Assembly (NCBI GenBank): GCA_000230955.3
Contig: CP007060.1
Coordinates: 558,001 to 622,000, forward strand
DNA: 64,000 nt
Reading direction: 5' to 3'
From: Halobacterium sp. DL1
Lineage (GTDB): Archaea > Halobacteriota > Halobacteria > Halobacteriales > Halobacteriaceae
This document shows positions 21,680 through 39,248 of this stretch, piece by piece. The stretch's first letter is position 1. Every line of letters starts with the position of its first letter. Both the position numbers and the translations under genes were made by a program. Below the pieces are notes generated by a model that was given only the letters and a program-made list of their open reading frames with translations, was not told where the DNA came from and made no database searches.

Positions 21680-21928
21680 TTACTCGACTTCGATGACGGC
21701 GAGCTCGTCGCCCGCGTCGACTTCCTCCTCGTTCTCCACGAAGAACTCGACGACTTCACCGTCCGCCTCGGCCGTGATGTCGTGGAAGTTCTTCATGACG
21801 CCGATGAGGCCGATTACGTCGCCGCTCTCGACGTGGTCCCCGGGCTCGGCGAAGGTGGGGTCGTCCGGGTCCGGACGCCGGTAGAACACGCCTGGCATCG
21901 GTGCTGTGACGGTGGTACGCTCGGTCAT
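21680..21928 (-). CDS. Stand-alone biotin carboxyl carrier protein (biotinyl/lipoyl domain)
   Basis: 82-residue single domain. It folds as a biotinyl-lipoyl barrel: TVTAPMPGVFYRRPDPDDP, GDHVESGDVIGLIGVMKNF, EADGEVVEFFVE. The Lys in VMKNF is the expected biotinylation site, although the usual motif is AMKM. The start at 21928 is preferred to an upstream frame extension that overlaps the TATA-like element. Separate small carriers of this kind accompany 5-oxoprolinase-type carboxyltransferase-like proteins and act with a biotin carboxylase such as the one at 27126-28478. Confidence 0.88.
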   Translation of the reverse strand: MTERTTVTAPMPGVFYRRPDPDDPTFAEPGDHVESGDVIGLIGVMKNFHDITAEADGEVVEFFVENEEEVDAGDELAVIEVE

Positions 21929-21956
21929 ATCGTTAGCGAAAATGGAACGCCGACCC

Positions 21957-21964
21957 ACATATAG
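21957..21964 (-). promoter_or_regulatory. Candidate TATA box of the biotin carrier gene
   Basis: The minus strand reads CTATATGT, 29-36 bases before the start codon at 21928. Confidence 0.4.
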
Positions 21965-22084
21965 TTTCCCCACACCGTCCGTTCAGTCGTCCGAAACGTG
22001 ACTCTCTTTCCAGATTTCGAGTCGAGATAGGAGTCAATTCAACCTGGCTGCTCGGGGCCGGAACGCGGCCGGTTCCGCCGGCCG

Positions 22085-24108: not shown

Positions 24109-25737
24109 CTACGCGAGGTCGCGTTCCGGGTCCGGCTGGAAGTCGTAGTCGTCGGGCTCGTCGTCGGTGTCCTCGGCCGCCCTGAGCACGTCGTCGATGC
24201 GGACGAGCTGGACCACGACGTCCGACGCCTTCGTCACGGCACCCTCCACGACCGCTGCGAGGTCGTACGGTCCCTCTTCGCCTGCCGACCGTACGGCCCT
24301 CGCGTCGGTGTCGTAGACCGCGTCCGCTCCCCCGGCGCGCAGGCTGGTGACGGCGTCGACCGCGTCCCCGCCGCTGTTGCGCGCGAGGGTACGCGGTAGG
24401 TCCTCCAGGGCGTCGGCGAACGCGTCCATCACGATGGCAGAGCGGTCCGGGACCGACCGGGCGTCCGCCCGCACCTCGGCAGCGAGCCTGGTCCACGCGC
24501 CGCCGCCGCCCGGAACGACCTGGCCGCCCTCCAGAATCGTCCGGCCGGTCACGACACCCGTCATCAGTTCGCGCTGCATCGACTCGGTGCCCGCGTGAAC
24601 GGTCCCCGAGACGAGCAGCGTCCCGACCTCGCTCTCCGGACAGCGGTCGATGCGGACGTACTGGTCGTCGTCGCCCTCGACCCGCAGCCGGCCGGCGGTG
24701 CCCACGTCGGCGGCCGTGGTGTCCGCGAGGTCCATCACGAACGACGCGCCGGTCGCCCGCGCCACGCTTCGGGCCTGCGAGGCCTGGAGGCCCCTGAACG
24801 CGGTGATGCCGGCCTCGTCGAGCGCCGATATCGCGCGGTCGCTGATGCCCATCGCGGTGAACACGACGTCGACGCCCGCGTCTACGAGCACCTGTACCTG
24901 CGTCGCGACCTCCTCGACCTCCCGCTGCTGGAACGCCGTGCGGTCGTCGGGCGTCTTCGGGTTCACGGTGACCTCCGTGCGCCCCTTCCCCTCGCTGCCG
25001 CCGGCGCGTTTGAGCTCCCGCTCCTCGATGCCGCGGCCCGCGTTCTTCCCGCCGCCGACGACGGCGACGCGCGCGTCCTCGAACTCCCGGGGCGTGTTCG
25101 GCGTTACGGGCTCCCGTTCGAGGAAGAGGCCGCGGAGCAGTTCGGCACGCGGCGCGTGTGCGTCCGAGACGTGGTGGAACTCGACGTGGTCGATGCCGCG
25201 GCCCTCGCGGCCCGTCTCCCTGGCCGTCGCGACGAGGCGGGCGGCCTCGGTGACCGCGGCCACCGTCTCGTCGTCGCCGCCGTAGCTACCCAGCGCGGCA
25301 CGGACCGCGGCCCGGCCGCGTGGGTCGTCGAGCCCGTCGACGGACGTCGCCATCTCCGGGATGGCTGTCACCGCCGCCGCACGCGCCCGGTCGAAGCCGT
25401 CGGTGACCGTCGCGCGTTGGAATCCCTCGGCGAGCAGGCCTTCGGCGCGTTCGGCGAGCGCTCGGGCCAGCAGGACCACCGCAGTCGACCCGTCGCCGAC
25501 CCGCTCTTTCTGCTGGACCGCGCCGTTGCCCACCATCACCGCTGCCGGGTGTTCGACGTCGAGCGCGTCGAACAGCTGCTGGAGGTCGCTCGCGACGACT
25601 GGCTCGCCGGTGACGACGAGCTTGTAGCGACCCTCGGGTCCGTAGAGCGCCGCTGCGAGTTCACCGAGCTGTACTGCGCCGTCGAGGACGTCCACGTCGT
25701 CGAGTGGGTCGGTGGCGGTAATCTGGCTCGGCTCCAT
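24109..25737 (-). CDS. Divergent thermosome-like (TCP-1/cpn60, group II) chaperonin paralogue
   Basis: 542 residues with the overall architecture of a thermosome subunit. Visible landmarks: LYGPEGRYKLVV (canonically LGPKGMDKMLV) near residue 33, ALDVEHPAAVMV near 58, GDGSTAVVLLARAL (canonically GDGTTTAVVL) at 81, VVFTAMGISDRAISALDEAG in the apical region, the nucleotide loop VPGGGGAWTRLA, and the helix DAFADALEDLPRTLARNSGG near the C-terminus, ending VQLVRIDDVL. The NDGATIL loop is replaced by VVASDLQQL, and the GGM-rich tail is absent. ATP use may be altered. The gene lies in a metabolic cluster and is divergent from potA. Function unknown; see findings. Confidence 0.88.
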   Translation of the reverse strand: MEPSQITATDPLDDVDVLDGAVQLGELAAALYGPEGRYKLVVTGEPVVASDLQQLFDALDVEHPAAVMVGNGAVQQKERVGDGSTAVVLLARALAERAEGLLAEGFQRATVTDGFDRARAAAVTAIPEMATSVDGLDDPRGRAAVRAALGSYGGDDETVAAVTEAARLVATARETGREGRGIDHVEFHHVSDAHAPRAELLRGLFLEREPVTPNTPREFEDARVAVVGGGKNAGRGIEERELKRAGGSEGKGRTEVTVNPKTPDDRTAFQQREVEEVATQVQVLVDAGVDVVFTAMGISDRAISALDEAGITAFRGLQASQARSVARATGASFVMDLADTTAADVGTAGRLRVEGDDDQYVRIDRCPESEVGTLLVSGTVHAGTESMQRELMTGVVTGRTILEGGQVVPGGGGAWTRLAAEVRADARSVPDRSAIVMDAFADALEDLPRTLARNSGGDAVDAVTSLRAGGADAVYDTDARAVRSAGEEGPYDLAAVVEGAVTKASDVVVQLVRIDDVLRAAEDTDDEPDDYDFQPDPERDLA

Positions 25738-25833: not shown

Positions 25834-25840
25834 ATTTATG
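25834..25840 (+). promoter_or_regulatory. Candidate TATA box of the potA-like gene
   Basis: ATTTATG lies 30-36 bases before the ATG at 25870, within the short divergent region shared with the chaperonin-like gene. Confidence 0.4.
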
Positions 25841-25869
25841 TGTGCTGCGGCGAGTACCCGCTGGTAACA

Positions 25870-26976
25870 ATGAGCACAGACGTGCGAGGAGAGGACGACC
25901 TGTCTTCCGAAGAGAAGGTCATCGAGATGCGTGACCTCCGCAAGGTCTACGACGACACCATCGTCGCTGTAGACGACGTCGACCTGGACGTTCGCGAGGG
26001 CGAGTTCTTCACCATCCTCGGCCCCTCCGGCAGTGGGAAGTCCACGCTCCTCCAGATGATCAGCGGCATCGAGACGCCGACGTCCGGCGAGATTCGGCTC
26101 GGCGGCGACGTGGTCAACGACGTCAAGCCGTACAACCGGAAGACGAGCCTCGTGTTCCAGGAGTACGCGCTGTTCCCGCACATGACCGCCCGTGAGAACG
26201 TCGAGTACGGCCTGATGCTGCGCGGCGTCCCCGAGGACGAGCGACGCCAGCGCGCCGACGAGATGTTCGAACTGATGGACCTCGGTGGGAAGGAGGGCCG
26301 GAACATTCAGGACCTCTCCGGCGGCGAACGGCAGCGCGTCGCGACGGCGCGCAGCCTCGTCATCGAACCGGACGTGCTCCTCCTCGACGAGGTGCTGGGC
26401 GCGCTCGACGAGAAACTGGCCAAGGAGATGCAGGTCGAACTGAAGCGCATCCAGGAGGAGGTCGAGAAGACGTTCGTGTTCGTCACGCACAGCCAGGAGG
26501 AGGCGTTCTCGATGAGCGACCGTATCGCCGTGATGAACCAGGGCGACGTCGAACAGGTCGGCAAGCCCCTGGACATCTACCAGGACCCGGCCACCGAGTT
26601 CGTCGCTGACTTCCTCCAGATGCCGAACCTCGTCGAGGGGACGGTGACGGCGGTCCACGACGACACGGTGACGGTCAGCAGCGACGGGACGGACTTCCGC
26701 ATCGCGCGCAGCGAACTCCGGACCGCGCCGTCGGTCGACGACGAACTGGTCTTCCTGGTCCCGAACGAGCGGCTGTCGTTCGGCGACGGCCAGGAGAACT
26801 CGTTCTCGACGGTCGTCACGGACACCATCTTCAAGGGTCCGTACACGGAGTACGCGCTCGAACTCCCCTCCGGCCGCAACCTCCGCGCCCACCAGACGAC
26901 CGGCGAGACGCTGTTCGAGGAGGGCGAGACGGTCCAGGTCGGGTTCGAACCAGACGCCGTCTCCGTCTTCGACTGA
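25870..26976 (+). CDS. potA: Spermidine/putrescine-type ABC transporter ATPase (PotA)
   Basis: 368 residues. ATPase core: Walker [11 protein letters not shown]-loop [20 protein letters not shown], signature [14 protein letters not shown], Walker [13 protein letters not shown] and switch His [10 protein letters not shown]-terminal TOBE-type regulatory domain follows ([16 protein letters not shown], to the end). The Walker B tail reads DEV rather than the usual DEP. It should energise PotB and PotC (30461-32256), although it is separated from them by two other genes. ATG at 25870 matches the start of the conserved region better than an upstream extension that overlaps the TATA element. Confidence 0.92.
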
Positions 26977-28492: not shown

Positions 28493-28981
28493 TCAGTTCT
28501 CAGTGACGATGTCCTTCAGGGTCTCGAGGTCGTAGTTCCGGAACGGGATGCGCTCGTTCTTGATGGTGGAGATGGCGAAGTTCGTACTGCTGCGCTGGAT
28601 GGCGTCGATGCCCTCGTAGGCGACGACGAGCTCCTCGACCATCTCACGGCTGGAGAGGTGCGCGATGACGATGAAGTCGGTGTCCCCCATCGTGAAGTAC
28701 ACCTGGCTGACCCCCTCGATCTCGCTGAGCTGTTCGCCGACCTTCTCGTGGTACCCCTCCTCGTAGTCGGCCATCACTTCGGTGATGACGGTGAGGTTGA
28801 GGCCGACCTTCTCCAGGTCGAGGTTGAACAGTTCGTCCTCGATGACGCCAGCCTCGCGCAGTTTCTCGAGGCGATAGTGGACCGTGGACTTCGGGATGCC
28901 CGTCTCCTCCTCGACGCCCTTCGGACTAGGTTCACCAATGTCCGCCACTGCTTTAATGATCTCTGCGTCTTGCTCGTCCAT
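28493..28981 (-). CDS. Lrp/AsnC-family transcriptional regulator
   Basis: 162 residues. N-terminal winged helix (MDEQDAEIIKAVADIGEPSP, then STVHYRLEKLREAGVI) followed by a RAM/AsnC effector domain of the usual alpha-beta pattern (EGVSQVYFTMGDTDFIVIAH). Lrp-type proteins sense amino acids and control uptake or catabolism genes. It is convergent with accC (14 bases between stops) and divergent from potD, with which it shares a 216-base promoter region. It is the only transcription factor in the 19-33 kb cluster and its probable regulator. The ATG at 28981 begins the canonical domain; a longer frame exists but is unlikely. Confidence 0.92.
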   Translation of the reverse strand: MDEQDAEIIKAVADIGEPSPKGVEEETGIPKSTVHYRLEKLREAGVIEDELFNLDLEKVGLNLTVITEVMADYEEGYHEKVGEQLSEIEGVSQVYFTMGDTDFIVIAHLSSREMVEELVVAYEGIDAIQRSSTNFAISTIKNERIPFRNYDLETLKDIVTEN

Positions 28982-29197
28982 AGTCGGACTGTATACAGCC
29001 GCTTGTTGTAAAACTACACGGTTTTCGCGACCATCGTTGGTCCCGGGTCGAAAGCGGTCTGACAGGGACGCAATCTCTCGCACTCCGTTTGATATTAGCG
29101 CCCTATACTCCCAAATATACTAACTGTACTTTATTTCCCGAACTCGAAAAGCGTACAAATAGGAATGTTGATATCGCGTCCAGAACAGAACCAGTGT
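28982..29197. promoter_or_regulatory. Divergent regulatory region between the Lrp-type regulator and potD
   Basis: A relatively AT-rich 216-base region. It holds AT-rich stretches facing potD (ATATACTAACTGTAC near 29116 and ACAAATA near 29155) and short tatac/atact repeats. It is the likeliest place for autoregulation by the Lrp-type protein. No specific operator sequence is recognised. Confidence 0.4.
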
Positions 29198-30460: not shown

Positions 30461-31411
30461 ATGGCTCACGACAACTCTATATCGTCTGATAGCAGCGACC
30501 GAGGGGGTGTCGACTACTCGGCCCAGCAGCGCCTCCCGGCCGTGCTCCGGCCGCTCGTCGACAACGACCGGCTCAGGTTCGGCCTCCAGGTCCTGCCCTG
30601 GCTCTCCATCCTCGGGCTCCTGGTCTTCCTGCCGCTGGCCGCGATCTTCGTCTGGAGCGTCGCGATTCCTCAGCCGTTCGGCTTCAAACTCGGGTTCACG
30701 CTCGAGAACTACCAGGCGTTCTTCGACTCCTACCGCGTCGACACCTTCTTCACCACCATCAAGGAGGGCGTCATCCAGGTCCTGCTCGCGCTCGTGTTCG
30801 GCTTCCCCATCGCGTACTACGCGGGCGTGCTGAAGCGGGACTCGAAGTACACGTTCCCGCTCATGCTGCTGTTCGCCATCCCCTTCCTCACGAGCTACAT
30901 CCTCCGGACGCTGTCGTGGATCTCCTTCCTCGGCAGCGACGGCGTGTTCAACAGCGTCCTGCTGTTCACGGGCATCATCGACCAGCCGCTGGGGTGGCTG
31001 CTCTACTCGACGTTCGCCGTCCGGCTGGGGATGCTCGCGAGCTACCTGCCGTTCATGATCTTCCCGGCGTGGCTCGCGATGAGCCGCATCGACGACGAGA
31101 TACTGCACGCGAGCGCCGACCTCGGCGGGTCGCCGCTCGCGACGATTCGCCACGTCGTCATCCCGCTCTCGATTCCGGGACTACTCATCGGCGCGGTGTT
31201 CGTGTTCGTCGGCGTGCTCGGCGAGAGCGTCGTCCCTGTCATCCTGGGCGGCGGCAACATCTCGCTCATCGCGACCATCATCGACAACGCCGTCAACTCC
31301 GCGCGCCTCCCGCTGGCGAGCGCCATCAGCGCCGTCGTGTTGCTGTTCGCGGTGTTGCTGCTGCTCGCGTGGGAGTACGTCTACGGCCTCAGAACGGTGG
31401 GTGAGATCTGA
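30461..31411 (+). CDS. potB: Spermidine/putrescine-type ABC transporter permease (PotB)
   Basis: 316-residue inner-membrane subunit with six hydrophobic segments and the EAA loop EILHASADLGGSPLATIRHV. A hydrophilic N-terminus of about 45 residues precedes the first helix, longer than usual. Conserved PotB features include the TSYILRTLSWISFLGSDGV segment. Its last base overlaps the ATG of potC (TGATG), so translation is coupled. Confidence 0.93.
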   Translation: MAHDNSISSDSSDRGGVDYSAQQRLPAVLRPLVDNDRLRFGLQVLPWLSILGLLVFLPLAAIFVWSVAIPQPFGFKLGFTLENYQAFFDSYRVDTFFTTIKEGVIQVLLALVFGFPIAYYAGVLKRDSKYTFPLMLLFAIPFLTSYILRTLSWISFLGSDGVFNSVLLFTGIIDQPLGWLLYSTFAVRLGMLASYLPFMIFPAWLAMSRIDDEILHASADLGGSPLATIRHVVIPLSIPGLLIGAVFVFVGVLGESVVPVILGGGNISLIATIIDNAVNSARLPLASAISAVVLLFAVLLLLAWEYVYGLRTVGEI

Positions 31412-32256
31412 TGAGCACGAGTTCATCCCGCCTCTCCGACGTTCTGCGAACGGACCCGACGGTCTGGGTCTCCGACGTCTCGAAGGACTGGCTCTGGAAG
31501 GCGTTCATGGCGTTCTGGATCCTGTTCATCCTCGCGCCGCCGATCATGCTGGTGTTCATCTCGCTGGACACCGCGTCGTACGTCCGCATCCCGCAGGGGA
31601 TCACGCTCGCGAAGTACGAACTGATGCTGCAGAGCGACGCGCTCATCACTGCGATGGAGCGGTCGCTGAAGCTCGCCGTCGTGACGATGTTCGTCGCGCC
31701 GGCGCTGGCGCTGCTGGCGGTGCTGTCCTACCGGAAGACCACGTACAAGGCGCTGTTCGTCGCGGCGATGATCCTGCCGCTGTTCGTTCCGGGCGTCGTG
31801 CAGGGGTTCAGCCTGCTGATGCTGTTCAAGCAGATCGGCTTCGGGCAGGCGTTCGTCGCCACCGCCATCGGGCACGTCATCTGGGCGTTCCCGTTCGCGT
31901 TCCTCGTCATCCTGACGAGCATGTCGACGGTCCGCGACGACGTCCTGCTCGCGAGCGCCGACCTCGGCGCGAACGAGTTCGAGACGTTCCGCCACGTCAT
32001 CTTCCCCCAGATTCGGCCGGGCCTCATCAGCGCGGTCATCTTCAGCTTCGTGCTGTCGTTCAACGAGTTCTCGCGGACGGTCTACCTCCAGTTCGGGCAG
32101 AACACCATCCCGACGTACGTCTTCGCGAAACTGCAGGTGGAGCTGTCGCCGGAAGTGTTCGCCATCGCCGGCCTGACAGTCGTGCTGTCGTTCGTGCTGA
32201 TCGGCGCCGCAATCGCGGTGCTCTACGGCTCCGGTTCGCCGGACGCCGAGGAGTGA
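31411..32256 (+). CDS. potC: Spermidine/putrescine-type ABC transporter permease (PotC)
   Basis: 281 residues and about six membrane helices. The EAA loop is VLLASADLGANEFETFRHVI, and the C-terminal helices follow FSFVLSFNEFSRTVYLQFG. Forms the heterodimeric channel with PotB and is last in the potDBC operon. The convergent PxpA gene ends 88 bases beyond its stop. Confidence 0.93.
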   Translation: MSTSSSRLSDVLRTDPTVWVSDVSKDWLWKAFMAFWILFILAPPIMLVFISLDTASYVRIPQGITLAKYELMLQSDALITAMERSLKLAVVTMFVAPALALLAVLSYRKTTYKALFVAAMILPLFVPGVVQGFSLLMLFKQIGFGQAFVATAIGHVIWAFPFAFLVILTSMSTVRDDVLLASADLGANEFETFRHVIFPQIRPGLISAVIFSFVLSFNEFSRTVYLQFGQNTIPTYVFAKLQVELSPEVFAIAGLTVVLSFVLIGAAIAVLYGSGSPDAEE

Positions 32257-33223: not shown

Positions 33224-33943
33224 TCAGGCGAGCGCAGCGACCGCCAGCAGTCCGACGAACCCCGCCGAGACCAGCCAGTCCGTCCGCGAGAACGACAGCC
33301 GCGGCTGGGTCGGGTTCCAGGCGAAACACCGCGCCTTGAGCGCCAGCGAGAAGCGGTCCGCGCGCTCGAACGCCCGGTTGAGGCCGGCCAGGGCGACCGT
33401 CTGCATCCGCTCGTGGAGGCGGCGCTGGTCGCCGAGGCGCGCCTGCTGTGCCGCGCGCGCGCTCTGGAGGTCCGCGAGCAACACCGGCAGGAACCGCAGC
33501 ACAAACGACGTGCCCGCCGCGAGGAACCGCCCGGGTTTGCCCGGGACCAGCCGCGAGATGGCGGCCTGTGTCTCTGAGACGGGCGTCGTCTGCACGTAGA
33601 CCGCGCTCGCGAGCAGGATGGCGGCGACGCGGAGGCTGTGCAGGGTCGCCGCGAGGCCGGCGTCGACGTCCACCCAGGGCGGGCCGAGGGTGACTGTCCG
33701 CGTCAGCGTGGCGAACGCCAGGAGCACGAACGGGAGCGCGTACCCCGGGAAGACGCTGCGCAGTCGGACCCTCGCTAGCGCCATCCCGCCGACGACGAGC
33801 GCCCAGACGACCGGGAGCGCGAGCGCGTCGGTCCACGTGAACGCCAGCAGCGCGACGACGAACTGTCCCAGGAGCTTCGTGCGGGCGTCGAGGCGGTGGA
33901 CGACGGTGTCCCCCGGGGCGTACGAGAGCCCGATGGCCGTCAC
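33224..33943 (-). CDS. ecfT: ECF transporter transmembrane subunit EcfT (biotin module)
   Basis: 239 residues of the CbiQ/EcfT family with four to five helices. The cytoplasmic coupling region contains two Ala-Arg-Gly-like helices (SARAAQQARLGDQRRLHER near residue 160). Links the ATPase to the substrate-specific component. Overlaps the upstream ATPase gene by 4 bases and is last in the BioY-EcfA-EcfT operon. Confidence 0.9.
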   Translation of the reverse strand: MTAIGLSYAPGDTVVHRLDARTKLLGQFVVALLAFTWTDALALPVVWALVVGGMALARVRLRSVFPGYALPFVLLAFATLTRTVTLGPPWVDVDAGLAATLHSLRVAAILLASAVYVQTTPVSETQAAISRLVPGKPGRFLAAGTSFVLRFLPVLLADLQSARAAQQARLGDQRRLHERMQTVALAGLNRAFERADRFSLALKARCFAWNPTQPRLSFSRTDWLVSAGFVGLLAVAALA

Positions 33944-34638
33944 GGCTGACGCACCCCGAGGTCCGGTAGTCGCTCGTGGACGGCGTCGTAGTCGCCATCG
34001 GCCGCGATGGTGCCGTCCCGGAGGACGACCACGCGGTCCGCAAGGTCGGCGACGTCGCGCAGGTCGTGTGTGACCACGACCACGCTGGTTCCGGCCGCTT
34101 TCAGCGCCGCGAGCCTGTCGCGGACGGCCGCCTGTGCGGGGGCGTCCAGCCCAGTAAATGGTTCGTCGAGCACGAGGTGGGCCGGCCGCATCGCGAGCGC
34201 ACCGGCGATGGCGAGGCGTTCCTGTTCGCCGCCCGAGAGCGCTGCGACGCGCTCCTCGTCCCGGCCGCCGAGGCCGACGGCGTCGAGCGCGTCCGCCACG
34301 CGGTCGGTTATCTCGTGGTGTGGGAGGCCAAGGTTCCGCGGACCGAAGGCGACTTCCTCCCCGATGGTCGCGGCGACAAACTGGTCGCGGGGGTGCTGGA
34401 ACACCATCCCGACGGCGACACGAGCGGCGACCAGGTCGTCCTGGACGGGCGTCCCGTCGACCAGCACCTCGCCGGCATCGGCCTCCAGCAGTCCGTTGAA
34501 GTGACGGACGAGCGTCGTCTTCCCGGAGCCGTTCGGACCGGCGAGCACGACGAACTCGCCGTCCGGGATGGTCAGCGAGAGGCCGTCGAGGGCCGGGACG
34601 CCGTCGAACGTCTTGACGAGGTCCCGGGTTTCTATCAT
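33940..34638 (-). CDS. ecfA: ECF transporter ATPase EcfA (biotin module)
   Basis: 232-residue ABC ATPase. Walker A GPNGSGKTT, Q-loop FQHPRDQFVAATIGEEVAFG (typical of ECF ATPases), signature LSGGEQERLAIAGA, Walker B HLVLDEPFTGLD and switch His VVTHDLRD. Sits between bioY and ecfT with 4-base overlaps on each side, so the three genes form one translationally coupled operon. One ATPase gene means a homodimer is expected. Confidence 0.93.
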   Translation of the reverse strand: MIETRDLVKTFDGVPALDGLSLTIPDGEFVVLAGPNGSGKTTLVRHFNGLLEADAGEVLVDGTPVQDDLVAARVAVGMVFQHPRDQFVAATIGEEVAFGPRNLGLPHHEITDRVADALDAVGLGGRDEERVAALSGGEQERLAIAGALAMRPAHLVLDEPFTGLDAPAQAAVRDRLAALKAAGTSVVVVTHDLRDVADLADRVVVLRDGTIAADGDYDAVHERLPDLGVRQP

Positions 34639-35219
34639 TTCGCGGCGACGGCGTCGCTACGAACGATACCGACGGCGGCGGCTATCTTCGCGGCCTCGAA
34701 CGGCACGAACGCCGCGCTCCCCGAGACGACGGCGGTGACGATGCCGGCAGGGGTCGCGAGGTAGATGCCGAGGGAGCCGAGCGCGTAGACGACGACGGTC
34801 CCGGCGACCATCGCGCCGACGAGCCGCCAGACGCCGGCGTCGTTGGGGTCTCGGAGCGTGAGTCCGGAGTGGACGACGGCGCCGATGACGAACGCGGCGA
34901 TGGGGTACGACCAGAGGTAGCCCGCGGTCGGCCCGAGGAGCGCACCGACGCCCGCACTGCCTCCCGACCAGACGGGGACGCCCGCGGCGCCTGCGACGAG
35001 GTACAGCGCCATCGAGACCGCGCCCCAGACGGGGCCGAGGTAGATGCCCGCGAGGAACAGCGCCAGCACCTGCAGCGTCACCGGGACCTGTGGTGCGAGG
35101 GGGTTCGGGAACGAGACGTACGCGCAGGCGCCGATGAGCGCCGCGAACAGCGCCGCCCGAGCGATGTTCTCGACCGTGTCGTCGCCGACGACGTCGACGT
35201 CTTCCGTCGTGGTACTCAT
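34635..35219 (-). CDS. bioY: Biotin transporter substrate-specific subunit BioY
   Basis: 194-residue integral membrane protein, the S-component that binds biotin. Characteristic motifs: the helix LAPQVPVTLQVLALFLAG, YLGPVWGAVSMALYLVAGA, and GPTAGYLWSYPIAAFVIGA. The start at 35219 (MSTTTEDVDV) is chosen; an upstream start would add seven residues. First gene of the operon. It plausibly supplies biotin to the carrier/carboxylase pair encoded 6-13 kb away, though biotin is needed by other enzymes too. Confidence 0.95.
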   Translation of the reverse strand: MSTTTEDVDVVGDDTVENIARAALFAALIGACAYVSFPNPLAPQVPVTLQVLALFLAGIYLGPVWGAVSMALYLVAGAAGVPVWSGGSAGVGALLGPTAGYLWSYPIAAFVIGAVVHSGLTLRDPNDAGVWRLVGAMVAGTVVVYALGSLGIYLATPAGIVTAVVSGSAAFVPFEAAKIAAAVGIVRSDAVAAK

Positions 35220-35373
35220 ACCCACTCCTTCTCTCGTCAACCAGCATCAAAACTGTGGTTCACGCCACCGCTCGCCACCGGGGACGCTGGCCGACGTCCA
35301 CGATACTGGAACAGACTGGTGCTCGTCCGGCAGAAACGGGATGGAGTTCGACGCCGGTGCCGGAGCGGCGCCG

Positions 35374-36240
35374 TTACCGCGCTCGCTCCACGGCGTCGGC
35401 CAGCACTTGCTCCGCGTACACCGCCAGCAGGTGCGCGCGGAACGCGCCGGACGACTGCGGGTCCGAGCGCACGTCGTCCGGGTCGACTGCCTCCTTCGCC
35501 GCGGCCCCGGCGTCCGAGAGCAGTTCGTCGTCCACGGACTCGCCCTCGAGCGTCTCTTCGACGCTCTCGAGCCTGAACGGGCGGTCGGTGACGCCCGTGG
35601 CGCCCAGGCGCGCCTCCTCGACGGTACCGTCGTCCAGTCGGACGCTCGCAGCGACGCCCACCAGCGCGTACCCCGAGAGGGGGTCCCGGCGCTTGTGGTA
35701 CGCGCTCCCGGCGTCCCCGTCGACGGGAACCTCTAGCCTGGTGGCGACCTCCTGGTCGCCGACGGCCGTCTCGAAGGACCCGTCGAAGAGGTCGGTGGCG
35801 TCGATGGTGCGCTCGCCGTCCGGCCCCTGGACGACGAGGCCGGCGTCGAGCGCCAGCACCGCCGCGGGCGGGTCCGAGCGCGGGTCGCCGTGCGCGAGGT
35901 TCCCGCCGATGGTCCCGCCGTTCCGTATCTGCGGGTCGCCGACCTCGCCCGCGGCCTCCGACAGCGCCGCCGCGTGGTCCGCCACTGATTCCGACTCCGC
36001 TAGCTCCGCGTGGGTCGCCATCGCGCCCACCGACAGCGTGCCGTCGTTCGCCTCGATGGCGGACAGCCCATCTAGTTGGCCGATGTCGACGAGCGCGGGC
36101 GGCGACTCGTCGCCGGTCTTCATGCGCGTAAGGATGCCCTGTGCGCCCGCGAGCAGTTCGCTGCCGTCGTGTTCGTCCAAGAGGCTGACCGCCTCGTCGA
36201 CGCTGTCTGCGCGGTAGTAGTCGAACGCGTCGGTGTACAT
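35374..36240 (-). CDS. FAD-binding subunit of a molybdenum hydroxylase (CoxM/CutM-like)
   Basis: 288 residues. Starts MYTDAFDYYRADSVDEAVSL as in CoxM subunits. The first FAD loop is LLAGAQGILTRMK (normally AGGQSL-P-MK), and the second is TIGGNLAHGDPRSD. Carries electrons from the Fe-S subunit to FAD. Its ATG overlaps the stop of the large subunit by one base. Third gene of an operon in the order small (2Fe-2S), large (Mo), medium (FAD). Confidence 0.92.
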   Translation of the reverse strand: MYTDAFDYYRADSVDEAVSLLDEHDGSELLAGAQGILTRMKTGDESPPALVDIGQLDGLSAIEANDGTLSVGAMATHAELAESESVADHAAALSEAAGEVGDPQIRNGGTIGGNLAHGDPRSDPPAAVLALDAGLVVQGPDGERTIDATDLFDGSFETAVGDQEVATRLEVPVDGDAGSAYHKRRDPLSGYALVGVAASVRLDDGTVEEARLGATGVTDRPFRLESVEETLEGESVDDELLSDAGAAAKEAVDPDDVRSDPQSSGAFRAHLLAVYAEQVLADAVERAR

Positions 36241-38609
36241 CAGTCCTCACCCCCCGTTGCCCGCCAGACAGTCTCCGGCGTTATCGGCATGTCCAGGTGG
36301 TCGACACCGAACGGTTCCAGCGCGTCCGAGACGGCGGCGACGAGCGTCGGCGTCCCGGCGATGGTCGCCGACTCGCCGACGCCCTTCACGCCGATGGGGT
36401 TGTGCGGACTCGGCGTGACGGTGTTGTCCGTCACGAAGTCCGGCAGCTGGGTCGCCTGGGGCACCGCGTACTCGTCCATGCGGCGCGTCTCCAGGTGGCC
36501 GTCCTCGTCGTAGGACGCGCCCTCGAACAGCGCCGCGCCGATGCCCTGGGCGATGCCGCCGTGGACCTGCCCCTCGACGATGAGCGGGTTGATGATCTCC
36601 CCGCAGTCGTCGACGCCGACGTACTGCTGGATCTCTATCTCGGCGGTCTCCGGGTCGACCTCGACGACCGCGACGTGCGTCCCGAACGGGAACGTGAAGT
36701 TCTCCGGGTCGTAGAAGTTCGTCACCTCCAGGCCGGGGTCCATCTCGTCGGGCAGGTCGTGGCCGAGGTACGCCTGGTGGGCGATGCCCTGGATGTGCAT
36801 CGACCGGTCGGGCGAGCCCGCGACCTGGAACTCGCCGTCCTCGAACTCGATGTCGTCGACGCTCGCCTCCAGCTGGTGGGCGGCGATGCGGCGCGCCTTC
36901 TCGCGGACCTCCCGCGCACCGCGCGCGATGGCGCCGCCGCCGACGGACGCGCTCCGGCTGCCGTACGTCCCCATCCCCTGCGGGATGCGGTCGGTGTCGC
37001 CCTCGATGACCTCCACGTCGTCGAGCGAGACGCCGAGTTCCTCGGCCGCTATCTGGGCGTACGTCGTCCGGTGGCCCTGCCCCTGGTCGGCCGTCCCGGC
37101 GAGCACGGTGACCGTGCCCGTCGAGTCGAACCGGACGATGGCGCTCTCCCAGCCACCCGCCTGCGAGCCAAGGTTGCCCGCCGCCTCCGACGGCGACAGG
37201 CCCGCGGACTCCACGAAGTTCGCCACGCCGATGCCGATGTAGCGGCCCTCCTCGCGGAGCTCCTCCTGGCGCTCCCGGAGCTCCTCGTAGTCGATGTGGT
37301 CGAGCGCGGTGTCCATGCCGCGCTCGTACTCGCCGCTGTCGTAGACGAGCGCCGCCGCCGACTCGTAGGGGAACTCCTCGGGCGGGACGAGATTCTGCCT
37401 GCGGAACTCGACTGGGTCCATGTCGAGTTCGCGCGCCGCGACGTCCATCGCCCGCTCGACAACGTAGATGCCCTCCGCGCGGCCCGCGCCGCGGTAGGCG
37501 TCGACCGGCGTCGTGTTCGTGAACGCGCCGACGACCCGCGCGTAGATGGTCGGAATCTTGTACTGCCCGGAGAGCACGGTCGTGTAGAGGTACGACGGCG
37601 TCGCGGAGCCGAACTGCGAGAGGTGTGCGCCCAGTCCCGCGTACGTCTCCGCGCGCAGCCCCCGCACGGTCCCGTCGTCGTCGACGGCGATCTCGACGGT
37701 GGTGTCGTGGTCGCGGCCGTGGCAGTCCGTCCGGTAGCTCTCCGAGCGGGTGGCCTGCCACTTCACCGGGCGCTCGACCTGCATCGACGCCCAGCCGGTC
37801 ACCGCCTCGTCTGGGTAGTGGTAGATCTTGCTGCCGAACCCGCCGCCCACCTCGGGCGCGATGACCTGGAGCTTGTTCTCCGGGATGCCGAGCGTCGCCG
37901 CGGCCATCAGCATCCGGTGGAGGTGGGGGTTCTGGCTGGTCATCCAGATGCGCATCTCCTCGGTCGTCGCGTCCCAGTCGGCGACCGCGGCCCGGGGCTC
38001 CATCGCGTTCGGGATGATGCGCGGCAGGCGGAGGTCGACGCTGGCCGTGTGGTCGGCATCGGCGAACGCGTCGTCGACGGCGTCCGGGTCGCCGAGTTCG
38101 AAGTCGAAGCCGACGTTGTCCTCGGCTTCCTCGTGGACCTCTGGGACGTCGGCCTCGACGGCCTCTCGCGGGTGGGTGGCGTGGTCGAGTTCCTCGTACT
38201 CGACGTCGATGCGCTCGACGGCGTCGCGGGCGACGTGTCGGGATTCGGCGACCACCGCGGCGACGCCGTCACCCTCGTGGCGCACCTTGTCGACGGCGAG
38301 CATCCGGTACTGCGGCTGGACGAGGTTCGGGAGGTCCCACGCCGTCGGGATGGCGTTCGGGACGCCGCTGTCCTCGACGTCCTGTCCGGTGAAGACGGCG
38401 ACGACGCCGTCCATCGCTTCCGCCTCGCTGGTGTCGACGTCGACGATGCGGGCGTGGGCGTGGTCCGAGCGCCGGATGGCGAGGTGGGTCATCCCCGGCA
38501 GCGAGACGTCGTCGGTGAACGTCGCTTCGCCCTTCAGCAGCGGGACGTCCTCGCGGCGCTGGACCGGCGACCCGAAGACGGCTTCGGCGGCGTCCTCGGC
38601 GTCGCTCAT
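36240..38609 (-). CDS. Molybdopterin-binding large subunit of an aerobic CO-dehydrogenase/xanthine-oxidase-like hydroxylase (form II type)
   Basis: 789 residues. N-terminal Ald_Xan_dh domain (SPVQRREDVPLLKGEATFTD), cofactor loops PEVGGGFGSKIYHYPDEA and GTADQGQGHRTTYAQIA, and the C-terminal catalytic Glu in GVKGVGESATIAG. The active-site loop reads AYRGAGRAE, which marks the form II class, not the AYxCSFR of authentic form I CO dehydrogenase. The substrate is therefore probably an aldehyde, purine or other N-heterocycle; a CO-oxidation claim is not supported. The ATG at 38609 (MSDAEDAAEAVFGSPVQRR) is chosen, overlapping the small-subunit gene by 4 bases. An upstream in-frame extension runs inside the preceding gene and is rejected. 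Confidence 0.93.
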   Translation of the reverse strand: MSDAEDAAEAVFGSPVQRREDVPLLKGEATFTDDVSLPGMTHLAIRRSDHAHARIVDVDTSEAEAMDGVVAVFTGQDVEDSGVPNAIPTAWDLPNLVQPQYRMLAVDKVRHEGDGVAAVVAESRHVARDAVERIDVEYEELDHATHPREAVEADVPEVHEEAEDNVGFDFELGDPDAVDDAFADADHTASVDLRLPRIIPNAMEPRAAVADWDATTEEMRIWMTSQNPHLHRMLMAAATLGIPENKLQVIAPEVGGGFGSKIYHYPDEAVTGWASMQVERPVKWQATRSESYRTDCHGRDHDTTVEIAVDDDGTVRGLRAETYAGLGAHLSQFGSATPSYLYTTVLSGQYKIPTIYARVVGAFTNTTPVDAYRGAGRAEGIYVVERAMDVAARELDMDPVEFRRQNLVPPEEFPYESAAALVYDSGEYERGMDTALDHIDYEELRERQEELREEGRYIGIGVANFVESAGLSPSEAAGNLGSQAGGWESAIVRFDSTGTVTVLAGTADQGQGHRTTYAQIAAEELGVSLDDVEVIEGDTDRIPQGMGTYGSRSASVGGGAIARGAREVREKARRIAAHQLEASVDDIEFEDGEFQVAGSPDRSMHIQGIAHQAYLGHDLPDEMDPGLEVTNFYDPENFTFPFGTHVAVVEVDPETAEIEIQQYVGVDDCGEIINPLIVEGQVHGGIAQGIGAALFEGASYDEDGHLETRRMDEYAVPQATQLPDFVTDNTVTPSPHNPIGVKGVGESATIAGTPTLVAAVSDALEPFGVDHLDMPITPETVWRATGGED

Positions 38610-39079
38610 TCGCTCCCACCCAGCTGGTCGGCCGTCGCCTCGATGGCGTCGACGATGTTGTGGTAGCCGGTGCACCGACAGAGGTTCCCCTCGATGGCGT
38701 CCCGGATGTCGTCGCGGGACGGGTCCTCGGCGTCCTGGAGGAACGTGTCCGCGGTCATCAACATCCCCGGCGTGCAGTAGCCACACTGGAGGCCGTGGTT
38801 CTCCTGGAACTGCGCCTGGATGGGCGCGAGTTCGTCGTCCTCGGCTAGTCCCTCCACCGTGTCGATGGTCGCGCCGTCGGCCTGGACGGCGAGTCGCGTG
38901 CAGGACTTGATGGCGTCGCCGTCCTGCCGGACGGTGCAGGCGCCACACCGCCCCGTCTCGCAGCCGACGTTGGCTCCCGTGTAGTCGAGTTTCTCGCGGA
39001 GCGCCGTGACGAGTAGCGTCCGCGGCTCCACTGTCAGTTCGTGTCGCTGGTCGTTTACTGTGAGCGTGATGTCTGGCAT
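38606..39079 (-). CDS. 2Fe-2S small subunit of the molybdenum hydroxylase (CoxS-like)
   Basis: 157 residues with two [2Fe-2S] clusters. The plant-ferredoxin type has CETGRCGACTV with the fourth Cys in SCTRLA, and the all-helical C-terminal cluster has CGYCTPGM and CRCTGY. Passes electrons from the Mo centre to FAD. First gene of the operon. It overlaps the large-subunit gene by 4 bases, so the subunits should be made together. Confidence 0.95.
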   Translation of the reverse strand: MPDITLTVNDQRHELTVEPRTLLVTALREKLDYTGANVGCETGRCGACTVRQDGDAIKSCTRLAVQADGATIDTVEGLAEDDELAPIQAQFQENHGLQCGYCTPGMLMTADTFLQDAEDPSRDDIRDAIEGNLCRCTGYHNIVDAIEATADQLGGSE

Positions 39080-39248
39080 CGGTGTGTTCCTCCCCCCTCG
39101 CCTGGTCGACGACGGGAGTTACTCCCCGTGGGGCCGGCCCACGATAACGCATACCACGGACCTGTCGAGCAAAAAGATTGGGGGCCCTGTTCGAACGAGA
39201 GGCGAGCAGCTCGGCTCAAATCCGATACACCGACAGGAACGCCGCTCC

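Follow-up and report, generated by a model that had tools for sequence, protein, structure and literature searches.

A divergent group II chaperonin encoded within an uptake and catabolic gene cluster of Halobacterium, with candidate relatives in other haloarchaeal clusters

The window analysed here, a 64,000-nucleotide stretch of the Halobacterium sp. DL1 genome (contig CP007060.1, positions 558,001 to 622,000), contains at 24109-25737 (-) an exact open reading frame encoding a 542-residue divergent paralogue of the group II chaperonins, which we refer to as TCPx and place in a clade designated A. The gene is flanked by pxpB-pxpC-BCCP-aminotransferase on one side and by potA-accC-potDBC-pxpA on the other. 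The first side comprises a pxpB-like gene (CT_C_D, PF02682; 23056-23955 (-)) located 153 bp downstream of TCPx, a pxpC-like gene (CT_A_B, PF02626; 22085-23056 (-)), a small gene for a biotin carrier protein (BCCP, PF00364; 21680-21973 (-)) whose biotin site reads VMKN rather than the usual AMKM, and a class III aminotransferase (PF00202; 20077-21459 (-)) that is syntenic in genomes G005 and G583. On the other side, divergent from TCPx, lies a potA-like ABC importer ATPase (PF00005 and TOBE_2; 25840-26976 (+)), followed by an accC-like biotin carboxylase (PF02786/PF00289/PF02785; 27009-28478 (+)) whose domain begins near residue 42, so that the true start is probably later, and by an Lrp/AsnC-type regulator (PF01037 and HTH; 28493-29083 (-)). 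Next come a potD-like solute-binding lipoprotein (PF13416; 29165-30442 (+)) with a Tat signal (SRRSFLK) and a lipobox (LAGC), a potB-like permease (30461-31411 (+)) whose orthologue sits beside TCPx in the window as well as in G005, G359 and G583, a potC-like permease (31411-32256 (+)), and a pxpA-like gene (LamB/YcsF, PF03746; 32345-33214 (-)). Farther along, 33224-35240 (-) and 35374-39152 (-) hold EcfT-EcfA-BioY-like biotin importer genes, named by eye, and then xanthine-dehydrogenase/CO-dehydrogenase-type genes; CoxM-like genes also adjoin several chaperonin-free pxp loci (L221-L225).

Fold and sequence both place TCPx in the group II chaperonin superfamily. Its full-length match to PF00118 covers residues 29-520 at 288 bits against a cut-off of 34.3, while GroEL models score the protein at 27-48 bits vs. 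242 for the thermosome model. Its AlphaFold2 monomer model (pLDDT 85, pTM 0.82) is a complete group II subunit with the three-domain fold and built-in lid helix (residues 263-286), and matches the Thermococcus chaperonin 1q3s with a Z score of 40.6 and an rmsd of 2.8 Å over 493 residues. TCPx is nevertheless not an ordinary thermosome subunit, failing on family cut-offs, catalytic residues and tree position alike: its scores against the archaeal thermosome models of NCBIfam (242/671, 227/450 and 216/400 bits) fall far under the curated cut-offs, and it is only 28-33% identical to Ths1 and Ths2, the two ordinary thermosomes encoded elsewhere in the same genome. An earlier note, made from the letters of the window, had described a full-length but degenerate group II chaperonin-like gene between pxpBC and potA. 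Its length and placement are borne out, whereas "degenerate" holds for the motifs and not for the gene, which is under purifying selection. Compared with Halobacterium bonnevillei, whose TCPx is split across two contig ends (83-84% identity) and has the same neighbours as in the window, dN/dS is 0.22 over 226 codons, alongside 0.23 for PxpC, 0.20 for PotA, and 0.15 and 0.30 for ordinary thermosomes; on this value we rejected gene decay.

To define the altered sites, we compared 121 sequences in all, with 64 ordinary thermosomes as reference. The catalytic Asp position (Mm-cpn D386, GroEL D398), Asp in 64/64 ordinary thermosomes, is occupied in TCPx by T393 (24559-24561 (-)); across clade A it reads T/A/T, the last T being that of the fourth member, from G583. 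The column of K161, which we take to be the sensor-loop Lys of Mm-cpn, holds Tyr in TCPx, vs. Lys in 64/64 ordinary subunits. The Mg/ATP-binding Asp of the GDG motif (D82 in TCPx) is invariant across 121/121 sequences. The loops GPEGRYK, GDGST and GGGGAW, which had been pointed out beforehand, are all found in TCPx, as are the replacement of the NDG(A/V)TIL loop (by ASDLQQLF, though with the loop's Asp, D51, retained) and the absence of a GGM tail, a feature present in 36 of the 64 ordinary subunits. Directly before the lid helix, the clade-A alignment further reveals a lid insert, GGGKNAGRGIEERELKRAGGSEGKGRTEVT (residues 228-257; 24967-25056 (-)), that is absent from the ordinary thermosome, about half of its 30 residues being inserted by comparison with the ordinary subunit. 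Among three clade-A proteins, 22 of its 30 columns are invariant vs. 185 of 539 overall (p = 8e-6), and in the AlphaFold2 model of TCPx it forms a low-confidence loop. T393, the loss of the sensor Lys, the 30-residue insert and the BCCP gene at 21680-21973 all go beyond the earlier note. In Mm-cpn, the D386A mutant binds ATP, but hydrolysis is abolished and loss of GroEL is hardly complemented (PMC5019054).

A missing catalytic Asp might also point to a role other than folding, and two explanations of this kind have to be weighed. That TCPx serves as a scaffold without folding activity, or is a paralogue heading for loss, would fit its altered motifs and the split copy found at a related clade-B locus (L082 in G333), but seems improbable given the dN/dS of 0.22, the Mg-binding Asp that is invariant in 121/121 sequences, the conserved lid insert and the synteny retained across families. 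We give slightly less credence still to a sensory or regulatory role of TCPx in the cluster, instead of one in folding: although the gene is divergent to potA, an arrangement common for regulators, and has lost ATPase residues, the full chaperonin fold and lid helix are kept in the model, and the cluster already contains an Lrp-type regulator.

On the chaperonin tree, TCPx and its orthologue from G359 form a clade of their own with 100/100 support, outside the ordinary thermosome clades, as the earlier note had proposed. With a strict cut-off, the G359 protein (43% identity) was the one further TCPx orthologue among 391 Halobacteria genomes, and a search of its family added G583 as a fourth clade-A member, 60% identical to the window's protein; since interrupted genes can escape a strict cut-off, as happened with H. 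bonnevillei, the clade-A count is a lower bound. A scan of public genomes with one protein returned the H. bonnevillei fragment as its sole match, and no clade-A member was found among IMG/VR or plasmid sequences, the plasmids yielding other divergent copies. All four clade-A loci, which span two families and no fewer than three genera, carry pxpBC together with potABCD, so that the suggested association of the clade with pxp genes is indeed conserved. Within Halobacterium, TCPx and pxpC occur together in 2 of 13 species and are both absent from the other 11. The clade-A gene of G359 is directly followed, after 39 bp and on the same strand, by another chaperonin gene (L043:10499-12079) that is divergent in a different way.

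The same pxp genes allow the question of the client to be addressed, as many pxp loci have no chaperonin. Across 48 pxp loci (H. bonnevillei having been added by hand), a chaperonin is absent from 36, all of which contain PxpC and nearly all AccC, whereas a Pot importer, an amidohydrolase and a deacetylase-like gene are all lacking in 35 of these 36. At least one of these three is present in 12/12 chaperonin-bearing pxp loci vs. 1/36 of the others (Fisher's p = 2e-10, for a module defined post hoc, in stretches that are not all centred alike and that share ancestry). These counts argue against an assembly role for PxpABC and for a link to the uptake/hydrolase module, which in clade A takes the form of potABCD as the shared extra; with clade A comprising only four genomes, its importer link reflects few independent events. 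The earlier note had favoured a chaperone dedicated to assembling PxpABC or the biotin carboxylase, and in the window TCPx and pxpB do share a strand, with TCPx 153 bp upstream, while pxpBC is near all four clade-A genes. Set against this are the core enzyme genes that occur without a chaperonin in 36/48 loci, the clade-A locus L043, where AccC was not seen, and genome G141, whose PxpC, PxpA and AccC are 85%, 91% and 88% identical to those of the window with neither TCPx nor Pot genes nearby. The counts and these closely similar enzymes led us to reject PxpABC as the client, and a dedicated assembly chaperone for either enzyme now appears very unlikely.

Profile searches combined with neighbourhood reading uncovered further divergent chaperonins that group into clades B, C, D and E, all of them with full support. 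Together with A, this makes at least five such clades in haloarchaea, and every one goes with a particular type of catabolic or uptake cluster; the deep branching among them has weak support on the tree, too weak to speak for or against a single common origin. Run over some 165 further genomes of the phylum, outside Halobacteria, the A1 profile ranked only ordinary thermosomes and no member of the divergent clades. Clade B genes neighbour a polysaccharide-deacetylase-like gene in 13/15 loci, an amidohydrolase in 9/15 and a Pot-type importer in 9/15, and the 6/15 loci without an importer in the stretch read have the amidohydrolase and polysaccharide-deacetylase-like gene instead. In loci L081, L088 and L090 the clade-B gene separates potB from potC of an importer operon and runs on the other strand, and in G333 (L082:15437-16624) it appears in two pieces beside a pxp cluster.

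Clades A and B are single genes in most loci, whereas C and D are mostly neighbouring genes, accompanied by sugar-type importers (15/18) and enolase-superfamily enzymes (14/18); convergent C/D pairs were seen in L079, L083, L085, L086 and L127-L137, among others. The two catalytic Asp residues are present in 18/18 and 17/18 clade C proteins vs. 0/18 and 1/18 in clade D, and the C and D trees mirror one another (r = 0.97, Mantel p = 2e-4), as linkage alone could also produce. Overall, of the 19.5-kb stretches around divergent chaperonin genes, 26/37 hold an importer ABC ATPase and permease; the corresponding counts are 0/20 for ordinary thermosomes and 0/20 for stretches taken arbitrarily from those genomes. 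The profiles used for detection had, however, been trained on the neighbourhoods of divergent genes, and genomes that are related do not count as independent. On plasmid pNG700 of Haloarcula marismortui, a divergent TCP-1 gene (L094:11845-13461) lies about 35 bp after the formamidase gene fmdA, which adds another kind of catabolic gene to the neighbours seen. We found no description of these haloarchaeal clades in the open literature on archaeal, haloarchaeal and operon chaperonins, subscription papers and preprints being outside the scope of the search. The earlier suggestion of an undescribed chaperonin class is plausible, but its scope proves wider than stated, with at least five divergent Halobacteria clades in different clusters.

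Taken with the neighbourhood data, these observations lead us to favour, at a probability of roughly 0.45, TCPx as a functional chaperonin subunit dedicated to the uptake module of its cluster, most likely the PotABCD importer in clade A; here we infer both the client and assembly into a ring. TCPx would bind ATP and, by itself, hydrolyse it poorly or not at all, which would suit either a slow cage of the holding type or a subunit that is specific to its client and mixes with ordinary thermosome subunits. As client we would expect one of the uptake module's proteins, with the solute-binding lipoprotein or the importer's ATPase as the most plausible candidates. In halophilic archaea Tat is the predominant export route, and its substrates are exported folded (PMC2910488). 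The Tat signal of the solute-binding lipoprotein implies that it has to fold in the cytoplasm before export, and a cytosolic cage would prepare it for this step. A Tat signal and lipobox are found on 26/27 binding proteins adjoining divergent chaperonins, but haloarchaeal binding proteins in general often have such signals, so these do not single out the client.

Mixing with ordinary subunits may also be all that TCPx does, acting as a specificity or regulatory subunit that is active only inside the hetero-oligomeric Ths1/Ths2 thermosome and redirects that cage to the proteins of the cluster. This would be consistent with a protein that has lost its catalytic Asp while keeping the ATP/Mg site and equatorial fold, and the C/D pair, in which intact proteins accompany ones with lost residues on mirrored trees (r = 0.97), makes active/inactive mixing a theme of the group. 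We consider it possible but doubtful, as TCPx is far from Ths1 and Ths2 (28-33% identity) and the A and B chaperonins are single genes in most loci.

Among known systems, the archaeal thermosome subunits (TIGR02339, NF041082/NF041083) share with TCPx the full-length fold and domain order, the Mg/ATP-binding Asp, the GP of the first loop and the terminal RIDD. TCPx differs from them in its identity of about 25-33%, in scores far below the family cut-offs, in lacking the catalytic Asp, sensor Lys and GGM tail, in its lid insert, and in its location within an uptake and catabolic cluster. In that last respect it resembles MmoG, a divergent GroEL-like chaperonin encoded within soluble methane monooxygenase operons and proposed to serve the operon product (PMC9324122): both are encoded inside one metabolic cluster (4/4 clade-A loci for TCPx), but MmoG is a bacterial group I chaperonin and TCPx belongs to group II. 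The group III chaperonins of the Carboxydothermus type are group II-like and lack the nucleotide-sensing loop (PMC5220055); unlike TCPx, they are bacterial and mostly encoded in dnaK operons. As a structural match to TCPx, the group III structure 5x9v ranks below the thermosomes (Z 34.7 vs. 40.6), a comparison of structures rather than a placement on the tree.

In the textbook view, chaperonins are generalists encoded apart from the pathways that they serve. We see about an even chance that clades A-E are instead cluster-dedicated group II lineages that move with their clusters, some of them hydrolysis-dead and one an obligate active/inactive pair, for which there is no described group II counterpart, and this broader pattern would probably come as a surprise to specialists. 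If true, repeated group II lineages locked to transport and catabolic clusters, most of which have lost the catalytic Asp, would constitute client-specific cages provided by nature, each with only a few candidate clients, and in culturable haloarchaea one could then test directly by what means a group II chaperonin becomes specific and what role a hydrolysis-dead subunit has in a ring.
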